Shown here piece by piece: positions 27,220 through 46,058 of a stretch of DNA of 64,000 bases. A model generated the notes under the pieces. The model ran no database searches, was not told where the DNA came from, and worked only from the letters and a program-made list of their open reading frames with translations. Each line of letters opens with the position of its first letter. Position 1 is the stretch's first letter. The stretch comes from an uncultured Planctomycetota bacterium (GTDB taxonomy: Bacteria; Planctomycetota; Phycisphaerae; Phycisphaerales; UBA5793), in NCBI GenBank assembly GCA_900696685.1, contig CAADHA010000084.1:1-64000 (forward strand), read 5' to 3'. The position numbers and the translations under genes were made by a program.

Positions 27220-29599
27220 GCTTCAATGGGACCGCGGCTCGCGAGCCGCGGATGCGAGGCCGAGGCCGCGCTGTGCCTCCAGGCATAAGCGGCTTCAATG
27301 GGACCGCGGCTCGCGAGCCGCGGATGCTTTTGAGGGCGAATCGCTCCGCGTCACGATCCAGGAACTTCAATGGGACCGCGGCTCGCGAGCCGCGGATGCA
27401 TGGATTCAATGTCATCGCCCGCCGTGCTGATCGTACTTCAATGGGACCGCGGCTCGCGAGCCGCGGATGCTTTCCGGCCGCGGGGCTTGCGTCGCGCGCA
27501 TAGAACTTCAATGGGACCGCGGCTCGCGAGCCGCGGATGCAAAAAATTGACGCGAAGCCCCCCCGCCGTACCATGACTTCAATGGGACCGCGGCTCGCGA
27601 GCCGCGGATGCAACGCGGGCGATGTTATATCCTGCGCGCCGCAGACACTTCAATGGGACCGCGGCTCGCGAGCCGCGGATGCGCGGCGCTTCGGGCGCCG
27701 CCGGAGTGTGAAATCAAACTTCAATGGGACCGCGGCTCGCGAGCCGCGGATGCGCGGGCCGCGGAGTCGCGGGTCGGCGGCGGGGCTGATACTTCAATGG
27801 GACCGCGGCTCGCGAGCCGCGGATGCATGATCGTCGGCTGGGTCCTCGCGCCGCATGCCGAACTTCAATGGGACCGCGGCTCGCGAGCCGCGGATGCGGC
27901 GCGCGCGCTGTCACCGCCGCCGCCGCCAAAACACTTCAATGGGACCGCGGCTCGCGAGCCGCGGATGCTTCGCCGCGGGAGGCAATAAAAAACGAATTAT
28001 TTAACTTCAATGGGACCGCGGCTCGCGAGCCGCGGATGCGCGAGCTGCGGGTCCTCGCCAATCGGGCGCTTGACACTTCAATGGGACCGCGGCTCGCGAG
28101 CCGCGGATGCGGCTCGCTCATGGTCTTCCAACCCTGCCGCATCTACTTCAATGGGACCGCGGCTCGCGAGCCGCGGATGCGTAGATTTTGAGCGCGGGCC
28201 CATCAGCGGAAAAATCACTTCAATGGGACCGCGGCTCGCGAGCCGCGGATGCGAGATGGAACCAGCGGCGAACCGGCGCCGTCAAGAACTTCAATGGGAC
28301 CGCGGCTCGCGAGCCGCGGATGCGTTGCCGCAAACCACAAACCGCACGCCGTACTGTGACTTCAATGGGACCGCGGCTCGCGAGCCGCGGATGCGCGGAC
28401 TGTGGGGTAGATTGATGGGTTTTATTGAACTTCAATGGGACCGCGGCTCGCGAGCCGCGGATGCTGGGGGACGATGGGGACGATAAAAAGGCAAAACACT
28501 TCAATGGGACCGCGGCTCGCGAGCCGCGGATGCGGTCCTCGATGACTGCGTATTCGGAGACCCTCTCAACTTCAATGGGACCGCGGCTCGCGAGCCGCGG
28601 ATGCTACGATGCCGTACATCTCCCCGTACTCTGTTTTATACTTCAATGGGACCGCGGCTCGCGAGCCGCGGATGCTCGCACCGCCGGGAACAACAACCGC
28701 CGGAAACTACACTTCAATGGGACCGCGGCTCGCGAGCCGCGGATGCGACAAGCTCCGCGTGCGATACGACCCGGAGCGCTGGACTTCAATGGGACCGCGG
28801 CTCGCGAGCCGCGGATGCGAAGGCGCTCATCGCCTCGATCGGCGTCTTGCCGAAACTTCAATGGGACCGCGGCTCGCGAGCCGCGGATGCCTCGTCGCAC
28901 GAACCACCAGCTCGTCGGCCTTGATCCACTTCAATGGGACCGCGGCTCGCGAGCCGCGGATGCTCCTCAGCCCCCTCGAGCGAGACCGCGCGAACCAACT
29001 TCAATGGGACCGCGGCTCGCGAGCCGCGGATGCTCAGCAATGAAGAACTCCGCGAGGCCCATCGCGAACTTCAATGGGACCGCGGCTCGCGAGCCGCGGA
29101 TGCACCGATCGGCTGGAGCGCGTCGAGCAGCAGGTGATACTTCAATGGGACCGCGGCTCGCGAGCCGCGGATGCCGCGCAGGATGGATGGGCGATCGATC
29201 GTCCTTGAAACTTCAATGGGACCGCGGCTCGCGAGCCGCGGATGCGCATCGAAGCCCAGGCGATCAGTGTGGCCCACTGCACTTCAATGGGACCGCGGCT
29301 CGCGAGCCGCGGATGCCGCAGTTGCAGCCCCACTCGCGGTTGGCGCGATTACTTCAATGGGACCGCGGCTCGCGAGCCGCGGATGCATCATGATTACACT
29401 CCGTTGCAATCCACAATTAAACTTCAATGGGACCGCGGCTCGCGAGCCGCGGATGCGCGTAGAGCCGAACCCAGTCCGGCCGCTCGCAGATGACTTCAAT
29501 GGGACCGCGGCTCGCGAGCCGCGGATGCGGTGGAACGCGACGGCCACGTCCGTAGCGAATGGCACTTCAATGGGACCGCGGCTCGCGAGCCGCGGATGC
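27220..29599 (-). CRISPR. type I-G CRISPR array, 34 repeats and 33 spacers
   Basis: The 36-bp repeat reads on the plus strand ACTTCAATGGGA, then the perfect 20-nt palindrome CCGCGGCTCGCGAGCCGCGG, then ATGC. Repeats start at 27220, 27292, 27364, 27435 and so on, the last at 29564. Spacers are 33-37 bp, mostly 35. Only the two leftmost repeats differ (first base G instead of A), which marks the left as the old, trailer end. The transcript should therefore be the minus strand, giving repeat 3' ends of ATTGAAGT and a leader on the right beside csb2. All other repeats are identical, which suggests active or recent adaptation. Confidence 0.97.
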
Positions 29600-37807: not shown

Positions 37808-38098
37808 TCAAATGACCACGACTCCGCACTCTTGTTCCGGCAGCGACGAGCCTAGAACCGTTGCCGACTCGCGGGCGGTCTCCTCATTGGCGCCTAAGTC
37901 CACGATTAACACCTGATCCACCTTGAGGTTGACGACCTCACGGAGTGCATTCTCCAATCGGACGCGATCGATGGGCTTGAGCGTGCAGTAGAAAACCGAG
38001 TATTGCCACGCTTCGCCGTAGGCCTTCATCAGCTTGTGCGTTCGGCGGAGGCGCTTAGGGTCGCGGATGTCGTAGCAGACGAGATAGCAGCGGCGCAT
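37808..38098 (-). CDS. cas2: CRISPR adaptation protein Cas2
   Basis: 96 aa. Start at MRRCYLVCYDIRDPKRLRRT (ATG 38098, AGGAG upstream); the 12-residue upstream extension is rejected. The ferredoxin-like fold with catalytic-position aspartate in YDIRD and the pattern YGEAWQYSVFYCTLKPIDRV are typical. Works with the Cas4-Cas1 fusion in spacer acquisition. The stop is followed by 115 bp before cas3. Confidence 0.95.
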   Translation of the reverse strand: MRRCYLVCYDIRDPKRLRRTHKLMKAYGEAWQYSVFYCTLKPIDRVRLENALREVVNLKVDQVLIVDLGANEETARESATVLGSSLPEQECGVVVI

Positions 38099-38141
38099 CT
38101 TGAAGGCTCCTTGCCGGCGAAACGCCGGCACCACCTGACCT

Positions 38142-39983
38142 TCATCGAGTCGTTAGGAAGGCCAGGGTCGGCACCTCGCCGAGCAGCCAGGCGGCGATCA
38201 GCCGCGCGTGCAGCATGATCATCCGGCGGTAGCTCAGGCGGTACTCGAAGACCGGATGCGTCACCTCCGTGTCCATCCGCCGGCCGTAGGCTGAGAAGAA
38301 CGCTTTGCGGCCGGCATCGGTCAGTGCACAGCCCGCGTCGGTGTTGAGGAAGTGCCCCTCGACGAGTTCCGCACGATTGAACCCCGATACGGCGACCGAA
38401 TCTGCGATCAGCGGTCGGAACGGTTCCATCAAGTCCAATGCCATCGCCGGGCGGCCGGGGCGCGTGGCGTGAAGCGCCGCAAGCGTTGGTTCCAGACTCG
38501 CCAATCGGCAGGCCGCGGTGCACTCGTGCGTGAGCATCGAGTATGCGAACGACAGGACGGCGTTGATCGGATCGGGCGGCGGCCGCCGCTGACGACCGTT
38601 TGCGTCGAACCGGGCGGCGATCTCCTTCACGCCCTCCTTGAACATCCCCGCGAAATGTCGGAAGTAGATGGCAGCCGCGTTGCCTTCATGGCCGCGAAGC
38701 TCGTCCAACGTGGCGGCGCGTTCGGCGGAAGCGACGCAATCCTGAAGGTCGGCCGCTGCCCGTGACGGCAGGCCGGAGTGGTTTCGCATCAGGAGCGTGC
38801 GCTGATTGGCGATCTTCGCTACGGTGACGGCGCGGGCGAGTTCCAGCGATTTTTCTGGTCGATCCAGCACCCGGACCTGCGCAGCGCGGACGGCGGCGCT
38901 GGTTGGGCCCAACGGGTCCATTATGGCGGTCAGTCTGCCAGCGGCCGTGAGGAAGGCGACTGGCACCTCCTGCTCCGCGAAGATAGCCAGCGCCTGCGTG
39001 GAGATCTGCACGCCGCCCACGACCGCAAGCGACTCAACGTTTGCGAGCGGTAGTTCCTTGACCACGTCGCCGTCCTTGTCGGTGATCCGCACGGACTGGC
39101 CACGCACACCGACGCGGACGCCCTGGCGTTGGAGCACGACGTGGATGCCGTCATCACGCGGGGGCCAGAGTTTGCGGGGCGTGAGCTGTTCATCGACCGG
39201 CTGGCCGGCCACGGTCATCGCTGTGAATCGCTGGTGGTTGACCTCGTCGGGCAGGCAGATCGGTTGAAGCGAGCAACGCGGGCAGCGCGGATCGTTGACC
39301 AGCGGCGGCGGCCGCGGCCCGACTGCGTCGCGCTTAGCGGCTTCGAGTTCGGCCAGCGCATCGCTTCGCAGAACGTCATCGACCGACACGCGCAGCCGAA
39401 GTCGCTCCGCCGAATAATACAAGTACGCTTCAGGTACGATGTACCCGGCCTCCTCCAGGAGCAGCACCTGGAGGCCGAGTTGCACCCGATCCGTCGGCCA
39501 GGGCTCAGGGCCAAGGAGCAGAGGCAGTTGTTCCATTAACTCGTCGACAGCCCCGGCGACTTGGCTGCCGCCGCTTCGGCACGGCCGCCCCTTGCGGTAT
39601 TCGACCGGAACCGCGACGTTACCATTGATCTCGGCGAGGTCGAGCGTCGCGGTCAGTCCCAGCCGCCGGCTCGTGAGCGCCAAACTCCGAACAGAGCGTG
39701 GACGGTTGGAGTCGCTGTCGCTTTCTTCCAGTTTCTCGATTGTCTCGCGCTCCCTTGGGCGTTCCCGTGCGGCTGGTTCTGCGGACGCGGCGCTTGGCCG
39801 GTCGACGCGCCGATGGATCCCCTTGCCTTGTTCGGTATCGGCACTGGGCGCAAAGATACCTTCCACCGTCATGTAATAGAAGAGCCGAGGACAATAGGCG
39901 TGCTCGGCGACCCCGCGAGCTGGCCAAAGTTCCTGATCCACTAAGGGTTCATCGGTCCAGGCCGTCGAGTTGGTAACCTCCAT
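38142..39983 (-). CDS. cas4-cas1: Cas4-Cas1 fusion, CRISPR spacer integrase
   Basis: 613 aa. Cas4 part (about 1-270): first iron-sulfur cysteine in EHAYCPRLFYYM, nuclease PVEYRKGRP, then CPRCSLQPIC supplying the other three cysteines. Cas1 part (about 270-613): HEGNAAAIYFRHF with the catalytic glutamate, NAVLSFAYSMLTHECTAACR, and LHATRPGRPAMALDLMEPFR with the catalytic His and Asp. The fusion couples PAM-aware prespacer trimming to integration and is typical of type I-G loci such as that of Geobacter sulfurreducens. First gene of the cas operon. No clear Shine-Dalgarno at ATG 39983. Confidence 0.95.
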   Translation of the reverse strand: MEVTNSTAWTDEPLVDQELWPARGVAEHAYCPRLFYYMTVEGIFAPSADTEQGKGIHRRVDRPSAASAEPAARERPRERETIEKLEESDSDSNRPRSVRSLALTSRRLGLTATLDLAEINGNVAVPVEYRKGRPCRSGGSQVAGAVDELMEQLPLLLGPEPWPTDRVQLGLQVLLLEEAGYIVPEAYLYYSAERLRLRVSVDDVLRSDALAELEAAKRDAVGPRPPPLVNDPRCPRCSLQPICLPDEVNHQRFTAMTVAGQPVDEQLTPRKLWPPRDDGIHVVLQRQGVRVGVRGQSVRITDKDGDVVKELPLANVESLAVVGGVQISTQALAIFAEQEVPVAFLTAAGRLTAIMDPLGPTSAAVRAAQVRVLDRPEKSLELARAVTVAKIANQRTLLMRNHSGLPSRAAADLQDCVASAERAATLDELRGHEGNAAAIYFRHFAGMFKEGVKEIAARFDANGRQRRPPPDPINAVLSFAYSMLTHECTAACRLASLEPTLAALHATRPGRPAMALDLMEPFRPLIADSVAVSGFNRAELVEGHFLNTDAGCALTDAGRKAFFSAYGRRMDTEVTHPVFEYRLSYRRMIMLHARLIAAWLLGEVPTLAFLTTR

Positions 39984-42811: not shown

Positions 42812-43486
42812 CTAGCGGGTGGATGATCGATTCCATTGCATCGCATCGGTGAGTGGTTTCTTTACCAGGTCCGGCACGCGGCAATTTTCGGCGGGATAAC
42901 CGACGGGGATGAGCAGGTAGGGCTTTTCATTCTCCGGGCGACGGCAGATGTCGCGCAGGAAATTCATCGGGCTGGGCGTGTGTGTAAGCGTGGCGAGACC
43001 GAGCTGGTGACACGCCATGAGAAAAAAGCCGGCGGCCAGGCCGGCGCTCTCGATCGGGTAGTAGTTCTTCACGCGGCGGCTGTCGATTTCCTCCCAGTCA
43101 ATACGAAAAATGACAACGAGCCAAGGGGCGACTTCGAGGAAGGGCTTTTTCCATGTGGTGCCGATGGGTTCAAGGGCGTCGAGCCATTCGCGGGGCATGC
43201 GATGGTCGTAGCTCTCCTTTTCTTCATGCTCGGCGGCGATACGGATTTCGCGCTTGATCGTGAGATCGTCGATGGCGACGAAGCGCCACGGCTTGCGATT
43301 CGCGCCGGATGGCGCACTGTGAGCGATGGCGATGGCCTGTTCGATGAGATCGCGCGGAACGGGCTTCGGCGAAAAGTCGCGGCAGCTTCGCCGCTGCTCC
43401 ATCTCGACCAGCAACTCACGGGCGCGGTGCACCTGCCACGTGGGATCGCGCGGTGTGAGGGTGTATGGAACGAGCTTGGGCGGCAA
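42812..43486 (-). CDS. nitroreductase family protein
   Basis: 224 aa FMN-dependent oxidoreductase. FMN-binding segments: RRSCRDFSPKPVPRDLIEQA near 30-50, SAPSGANRKPWRFVAIDD at about 58-75, and GLAAGFFLMACHQLGLATLT at about 150-170. The PSGANRKPW motif is typical of the iodotyrosine-deiodinase-like branch. The substrate is not predictable. The start appears to be TTG 43486, 11 bp from the inverted heptad element at 43498. It is the first chromosomal gene after the island end. Confidence 0.85.
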   Translation of the reverse strand: MPPKLVPYTLTPRDPTWQVHRARELLVEMEQRRSCRDFSPKPVPRDLIEQAIAIAHSAPSGANRKPWRFVAIDDLTIKREIRIAAEHEEKESYDHRMPREWLDALEPIGTTWKKPFLEVAPWLVVIFRIDWEEIDSRRVKNYYPIESAGLAAGFFLMACHQLGLATLTHTPSPMNFLRDICRRPENEKPYLLIPVGYPAENCRVPDLVKKPLTDAMQWNRSSTR

Positions 43487-43600: not shown

Positions 43601-43825
43601 TTACGCTTTCGGCTTGATCTGGTTGATCACCTCGTAGGGTTCGGGAAAGCGGCCTTCCTTGTGCTTGCTGAAGATCATTTTGCCGTCCACGACGACATCG
43701 AAGATACCGCCGCGGCCCTCGATCATCTGGGGCTTGACGCCGATCTCCTCCTCGATGAGCTCCGCCAAACTGGCGGCCTTGGGGAGGTAGTTTCACTGTA
43801 CGCAGTAGGTGATGGAAATCTTCAT
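43601..43825 (-). CDS. SelW/Rdx-family selenoprotein (Sec encoded by in-frame TGA)
   Basis: 74 aa including selenocysteine, read from ATG 43825 with GGAGG nine bases upstream. The sequence starts MKISITYCVQ, then TGA (43795-43793) as residue 11, then NYLPKAASLAELIEEEIG, a GRGGIFDVVVDGKMIFSKHK strand and GRFPEPYEVINQIKPKA to TAA. This is the complete thioredoxin-like Rdx fold with the redox motif CVQU in place of CxxC. A stem-loop 17 bases after the TGA serves as candidate SECIS. The function is probably a thiol/selenol redox reaction. The alternative, a Cys-to-stop pseudogene, is less likely because the rest is perfectly conserved. Confidence 0.8.
43762..43795 (-). promoter_or_regulatory. candidate bacterial SECIS element after the Sec codon
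   Basis: On the minus strand: TGA at 43795-43793, 16 bases, then CCGCCA GTT TGGCGG (43776-43762), a perfect 6-bp stem with a G-T-containing loop. The loop begins 22 bases after the TGA, similar to the spacing in known bacterial SECIS hairpins that recruit SelB. Confidence 0.6.
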
Positions 43826-43956
43826 CGTAACAGTCCTCCGACTCAGTTGGTTTCTCTTATTCTATCTCACAGCGCACGAATCGCCAAGTTTCACACCATC
43901 CGAGCCCGGAGCGCGAGCAACGGGTGGGACGCAGGGACCAGAGTAGGGAAATTGAG

Positions 43957-44044: not shown

Positions 44045-45796
44045 TCAGATTTCAACCGCGATGTCTGCCACTTGTGCGGGCTTTCTGCGTGCGACAGCCG
44101 CCTTGACGAGGCCAAGGAAGAAGGGATCGGGCCGCAGGGGGCGGCTGGTAAGCTCGGGGTGGGCCTGGGTGGCGATGAAGCAGGGGTGAACATCCTGCGG
44201 AAGTTCGAGAACCTGCATGATGGGGAAGTCGGGGGCCTTGCCTGAAAAGACGAGTCCGCCGGCTTCGAGCTTGTCGATGTAGCGAGGATCTACCTCGTAA
44301 CGATGGCGGAATCGCAGGCGAACTTCCGGTGCGCCGTTGAAGAGGCGCGAGGCGAGGGTGCCGCTTTTGAGCACCACGTCGTGGCCACCGAGGCGCATGT
44401 TGCCGCCGAGGCCTTCGATCTGCTTCTGCTCCGGGAGGATGTCGATGACCGGGTGCTTGCACTCGGCGCTGAATTCCGTCGAGCCGGCGCCGTCGAGGCC
44501 ACAGACGTTGCGGGCGAACTCGATGACGGCAAGCTGGAAGCCGTAGCAGAGGCCGAGGTAGGGCAGGCCGGTGGTGCGGGCATGGCGGATGCAGGATATT
44601 TTTCCTTCGACGCCGCGTGCACCGAAGCCGCCGGGGACGATGAGGCCGTCGAGATGGGCCAGACGATCGGCGACGTCTTCGAGGGGGATGTCGCTGACTT
44701 CGATCCAGTTGATTTCGACGGCCGCGCCGCAGCGTGCGCCGGAATGTTCGAGGGCTTTGATAACGGAGGCGTAGCTGTCGCGCACGCTCGTGTACTTGCC
44801 GGCGATGCCGATCGTGACGCGGGCGTCCACCTTTCGCAGCCGAGTGAGGTAGTCGTTCCACAGGGCGCGGGCTTTATCCTCGGCTTCGACGTGGACACGC
44901 TCCTGTATGCCGAGTATGTCCACCACGGCCTTGTCGAGGCCGGCCTCGCGGATCATCTCGGGGATGACATAGATGGATTCGCGGTCGTGCATGGAGAAGA
45001 CGCGGTTGAAGGGAACGCTGGAATAAAGGGCGATCTTCTCGCGGACCTTGTTTGAGACGGGCTGGATGGCGCGGCAGGCGATGATGTTCGGTTGAATGCC
45101 GCTCTGGAGAAGCTGCTTGATGCCGAGCTGGGCGGCTTTGGATTTCTGTTCGCCGAGGGCCGGTGGCTGGAGGACGTAGGTGAGAGCGACGAAACAGGTG
45201 CTGCCTTGGCCTTCCTCGAAGGCGAGCTGTCGCAGGGCCTCGATGTAGTAGGCGTTTTCCACGTCACCGACGGTGCCGCCGATCTCGATGAAAACCACGT
45301 CGGCATCGCTGGAGACTGCGAGCTGGCGGAGCTTGCTTTTTACTTCGCCGGTGACGTGGGGAATCATCTGCACATCGCGGCCGAGGTAGTTGCCGCGGCG
45401 TTCCTTCTCCAGCACGGCGGAGAATATCTGTCCGCTGGTGGAGAAGTTCATGCGGGTCATGTTCTGGTCGAGCATGCGCTCGTAGGTGCCGAGGTCCATG
45501 TCGCATTCCATTCCGTCGTCGAGGACGAATACTTCGCCATGGCGGAATGGGTTAAGCGTGCCCGAATCGAGATTCAGATAGCCCTCGAGCTTGATGGGTG
45601 CGACGGTGAGGCCCTTGTCCTTGAGGACGCGTGCGAGACTGCTGGCGAAGATGCCTTTGCCGAGGCCGGACATGACCGTGCCGAAGACGCCGACGTATTT
45701 TGTTTTTCCCGGCTTGTAACCGGGCGGCATCGGCGTATAGAACTCGGTCTCATCGGAAACGGCTGCCAGGGACGTGAGGGCATCTTGCGGGTTCAT
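44045..45796 (-). CDS. pyrG: CTP synthase
   Basis: Converts UTP to CTP using ATP and glutamine, the last step of pyrimidine nucleotide synthesis. 583 aa from ATG 45796 (GGAG upstream); the frame's longer upstream extension is rejected. Synthase part: KYVGVFGTVMSGLGKGIFAS and ECDMDLGTYERMLDQNMTR. Glutaminase part: GLPYLGLCYGFQLAVIEFAR with the catalytic Cys, and a C-terminal QAHPELTSRP with the catalytic His-Glu. About 40 residues longer than the E. coli enzyme, at the N-terminus (MNPQDALTSLAAVSDETEF). Diverges from the hydrolase gene. Confidence 0.96.
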   Translation of the reverse strand: MNPQDALTSLAAVSDETEFYTPMPPGYKPGKTKYVGVFGTVMSGLGKGIFASSLARVLKDKGLTVAPIKLEGYLNLDSGTLNPFRHGEVFVLDDGMECDMDLGTYERMLDQNMTRMNFSTSGQIFSAVLEKERRGNYLGRDVQMIPHVTGEVKSKLRQLAVSSDADVVFIEIGGTVGDVENAYYIEALRQLAFEEGQGSTCFVALTYVLQPPALGEQKSKAAQLGIKQLLQSGIQPNIIACRAIQPVSNKVREKIALYSSVPFNRVFSMHDRESIYVIPEMIREAGLDKAVVDILGIQERVHVEAEDKARALWNDYLTRLRKVDARVTIGIAGKYTSVRDSYASVIKALEHSGARCGAAVEINWIEVSDIPLEDVADRLAHLDGLIVPGGFGARGVEGKISCIRHARTTGLPYLGLCYGFQLAVIEFARNVCGLDGAGSTEFSAECKHPVIDILPEQKQIEGLGGNMRLGGHDVVLKSGTLASRLFNGAPEVRLRFRHRYEVDPRYIDKLEAGGLVFSGKAPDFPIMQVLELPQDVHPCFIATQAHPELTSRPLRPDPFFLGLVKAAVARRKPAQVADIAVEI

Positions 45797-46058
45797 GATC
45801 TGCTCCGATCCAGACGGCGACGTGAGGCGGGAGATCGAGCCGGATGAGCGATGGCGAACCGGCAACATCCCGACGCAGGCATTTGTAGATTGTAATCGGG
45901 CTGTCAAGCTCCGGCGAATCGCTGCGAAGTTATGTCGGCGGGGTTTATGGGGCGAGGGTGTGAAATCGGAGTTGCGGGACCGTTTTGCACGGGAGGGCCG
46001 CTGCGAGCCCGTCATTCGCAGCGGTCTTTTCCGACGACTGAAAGCAAGTGAGGGCGCC

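Follow-up and report, generated by a model that had tools for sequence, protein, structure and literature searches.

Near position 43,800 of the window (the whole 64,000-nucleotide stretch of DNA analysed here), a short minus-strand reading frame is interrupted by a TGA at its eleventh codon, raising the question as to whether the codon ends the protein, marks a broken gene, or specifies selenocysteine, as the initial annotation had proposed. Comparison with related genomes supports that proposal through the protein family, the invariance of the TGA, covariation in a hairpin behind it and the accompanying machinery, and we find that the segment 43825..43601 (minus strand) almost certainly encodes a bacterial SelW-like selenoprotein in which UGA is selenocysteine at codon 11. 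The features involved are as follows.

43601..43825, minus strand: predicted SelW-like (Rdx family) selenoprotein gene, 74 residues, CVQU (frame and profile matches)
43793..43795, minus strand: in-frame TGA, codon 11, predicted Sec11 (sequence and conservation in relatives)
43835..43839, minus strand: ribosome-binding site GGAGG, 9 nt upstream of the ATG (sequence)
43762..43776, minus strand: bSECIS apical hairpin CCGCCA-GUU-UGGCGG, 6 bp, 3-nt loop, G first (folding, covariation, absence in Cys homologues)
42812..43486, minus strand: nitroreductase-family gene, downstream neighbour (profile matches)
44045..45799, minus strand: CTP synthase (pyrG), upstream neighbour (profile matches)

The reading frame and its surroundings

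The frame opens with an ATG at 43825-43823 and closes with a TAA ending at 43601, and reading through the TGA gives a product of 74 residues (MKISITYCVQUNYLPKAASLAELIEEEIGVKPQMIEGRGGIFDVVVDGKMIFSKHKEGRFPEPYEVINQIKPKA) with the redox motif CVQU at residues 8-11, near the N-terminus. The Pfam Rdx profile (PF10262) spans residues 2-71, across the TGA, at 69.3 bits (cut-off 22.6), and TIGR02174 (CXXU_selWTH) also matches across it at 62.6 bits (cut-off 34.2). The initial annotation had obtained this C-V-Q-U protein by the same read-through and had suggested aligning it to the Rdx family; its coordinates are exact, and both whole-protein matches lie above the curated cut-offs. The GGAGG ahead of the ATG and the six base-pair hairpin that it had described can be read directly in the sequence. 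It had also anticipated that ORF callers would miss the gene or report a fragment, and indeed under the standard code the SelW frame yields just a fragment of 55 codons that begins with an internal TTG (43601-43768), listed together with other-frame and antisense ORFs at the locus. The gene is therefore a clean case of shortening by standard ORF calling.

Both neighbours were considered as operon partners and rejected, since neither is kept beyond close relatives: the nitroreductase-family gene adjoins SelW in the relative G196 too, but not in G136, and pyrG is not a conserved neighbour of SelW among the relatives compared.

Conservation of the TGA and of the hairpin

Among 397 genomes of the class, 88 contain Rdx matches, 95 in all, and 94 of these have exactly one TGA, located at the U of CxxU, and never Cys. 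The sole match lacking a TGA (L118, G325:C676:11408-11575) is a divergent paralogue with neither CxxC nor CxxU (YRRVPDFEQ), in a genome that also carries a normal Sec copy of SelW. The motif codon is likewise TGA, and never Cys, in 80 of 80 named public relatives, which span the Planctomycetota, Deltaproteobacteria, Acidobacteria, Chloroflexi, Calditrichota, Gammaproteobacteria, Bacillaceae, Poribacteria and others; the two sets partly overlap (for example, L145 is L083). Six peptides were used for the public search, just one of them covering the codon, and because Cys was written there the search did not select for TGA. These counts refute the scenario raised in the initial annotation, in which relatives have TGC or TGT and this strain alone has TGA. 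No phage homologues were found.

The hairpin starts at the 17th base after the TGA and its loop follows 22 intervening bases. Published limits for bSECIS elements specify a loop of 3-9 nt, a stem of 4-16 bp, a G in the first two loop bases, a distance of 16-37 nt from the UGA and an MFE <= -7.5 (PMC13188914), and with a 3-nt loop, 6 bp, G first, 22 nt and -9.9 kcal/mol the hairpin falls within all of them, which answers the SECIS check that the initial annotation had suggested. The first loop base (the 23rd after the TGA) is G in 157 of 157 distinct sequences. Folding z-scores of single sequences are uninformative (-0.4 to -1.2), and we have therefore used covariation across relatives, numbering stem pairs by their offsets from the T of the TGA. 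Pair 20-32, which joins two third codon positions, is formed in 156 of the 157 sequences (111 expected) as CG, UA, GU, GC, AU or UG, and pair 23-29, also between two third positions, in 156 of 157 (127 expected) as CG, GC, UG or UA. Because shuffle tests do not fully correct for relatedness, we also ranked these against other pairs and examined a reduced set; the two pairs rank first and second among 91 third-position pairs, and do so again in 25 sequences with less than 70% identity, while in the class set by itself 20-32 alone stands out. Compared with synonymous resampling, folding is stronger over the hairpin (mean z of -0.9) and not downstream of it (+0.1). In addition, where the loop codon encodes Ser it is AGT in 115 of 115 sequences, never AGC or TCN, and in eight Cys (TGC) homologues just one to four of the six stem pairs form. 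The hairpin is thus constrained at the RNA level, and the third-position covariation is a compact demonstration of a coding sequence doubling as a SECIS element.

Selenocysteine machinery and alternative readings

A search for tRNA genes found none in the window, and the selenocysteine machinery was therefore sought in the whole bin with which the window is filed (G000). There, selD, selB, selA and selC (tRNA-Sec) form one run (G000:C48:30682-35380); ARAGORN and Rfam concur on the tRNA-Sec, with anticodon UCA, and selD itself has one in-frame TGA. This bin also contains a second, diverged SelW copy with the motif CGMU, also with a TGA, at C75:16165-16374.

The window contig has, however, very probably been mis-binned and comes from a PLA6-type organism, because positions 28881-64000 (35 kb) are 99.8-100% identical to G130:C9, which is CAADGE010000009.1 from the planctomycete MAG PLA6, and because G000 holds a second copy each of pyrG (C133) and trmD (C56). 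G130 and G000 are of the same class but of different families. The second trmD of G000 scores 61% against the window trmD, as does that of G107, a relative in the genus of G000; no second copy of pyrG or trmD was seen in G130. The closest relative is G196, from the genus of G130, with 82% DNA identity over pyrG. With mis-binning probable, co-occurrence with the G000 sel cluster would not count by itself, but G130 has its own full machinery, with selA, selB, selD and a tRNA-Sec (UCA) all found, so that the selenoprotein reading holds whichever bin owns the contig. ARAGORN found no tRNA-Sec around the G130 selA, the gene being on another contig, and the G130 selD carries a TGA within CAGUAGK. 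The initial annotation had made its reading depend on selA, selB, selC and selD, and these are present in both G000 and G130. Across the 397 genomes, selA matches occur in 84 of the 88 with SelW and in 68 of the 309 without it (Fisher p 3e-38); the four with SelW and no selA match are G239, which is 98% complete, and G272, G337 and G385, at 83-88%.

The PLA6 contig terminates inside a CRISPR array. In the window the array has at least 23 repeats with a period of ~71, and a Cas4-Cas1 fusion and Cas2 are encoded ~8 kb away (28000-29599 and 37808-39983).

A TGA does break the frame, and Cys forms of Rdx are known in Proteobacteria and Actinomycetota, so the locus could be viewed as a CxxC gene damaged by a nonsense mutation or a sequencing error. 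But the same TGA recurs in essentially all relatives, from many phyla and independent genomes; changes among them beyond the TGA fall mostly at third codon positions, a pattern of purifying selection, and are accompanied by the covarying hairpin, leaving a pseudogene with a negligible probability. The hairpin might itself be a by-product of conserved amino acids (AAxLA), with no RNA element, since the stem lies partly in conserved codons and pairs 19-33, 22-30 and 24-28 are constrained by the protein. That the compensatory changes involve two pairs of synonymous third positions, that the loop Ser is always AGT and that pairing is gone in Cys homologues make this extremely improbable.

Readthrough alone would also produce the long frame, and UGA could be read as Cys or Trp through a reassigned code or general readthrough. 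The TGA occupies the Cys/Sec active-site position, though, and tRNA-Sec(UCA), selA, selB and selD are present together with a hairpin that fits the bSECIS model, and we consider such decoding very unlikely, although Cys may occasionally be inserted at the UGA under selenium starvation. In the favored selenoprotein reading, SelB with Sec-tRNA-Sec would bind the hairpin directly 3′ of the UGA and selenocysteine would be inserted at codon 11, to give a small protein with a CxxU redox centre and, as predicted from its sequence resemblance to SelW-like proteins of solved structure (best E 1.5e-10), a thioredoxin fold. By analogy with the function proposed for SelW, it may act in thiol/selenol redox reactions.

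Relation to known SelW-like proteins

SelW-like proteins were the most abundant selenoprotein family in ocean metagenomes. Bacterial examples go back to at least 2006, when SelW-like was listed among bacterial selenoproteins and its Cys homologues were noted to be few or absent in Sec-using organisms (PMC1794560). In Epsilonproteobacteria, SelW genes that annotation had overlooked entirely have been described, as has a SECIS hairpin of 5/6 bp that covaries and keeps an invariant G in its loop (PMC4607533). Selenoproteins and Sec machinery are also on record for other planctomycetes (PMC4807772). The window gene has in common with bacterial SelW-like selenoproteins (PMC1794560; PMC2398784; NCBIfam TIGR02174 and NF041051) the Rdx family, CxxU, length, the bSECIS hairpin after the UGA and the paucity of Cys homologues in Sec-using bacteria; nothing essential differs, and the gene is a planctomycete member, although its score against the Campylobacter equivalog NF041051 (86.5 bits) is below the 88-bit cut-off. 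Eukaryotic selenoprotein W (2npb) also belongs to the Rdx family and has CxxU, but its sequence is only remotely similar (E 0.013). In eukaryotes the SECIS is located in the 3′ UTR, whereas that of the window gene is within the coding sequence. Cys-containing Rdx proteins such as Atu0228 (2fa8) belong to the same sequence family but have CxxC, and the eight Cys-containing homologues that we read have no hairpin after the motif codon. The window gene is a genuine, easily overlooked and ordinary member of this well-known family; it strengthens the case that SelW-like is a common selenoprotein in this planctomycete class, and current understanding is unchanged by it.

One Gammaproteobacteria MAG (L193:1501-1719, JAQWMX010000022.1) carries a SelW relative with TGA at both motif positions, giving UxxU (MKISITYUTQUNYEP...). 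A hairpin is at the usual place, and with a single MAG the UxxU may be a sequencing error. A tentative suggestion, which we regard as doubtful, is that Sec is essentially obligate throughout this Rdx subfamily, with UGA never swapped for Cys across the sampled phyla, unlike in most bacterial selenoprotein families, and that in at least one member (L193) a second Sec has been gained, giving a double-Sec UxxU centre. We also note that UGA-containing SelW is found in many Bacillaceae, including Fictibacillus, Neobacillus, Peribacillus and Evansella (L208-L213, L217-L223).
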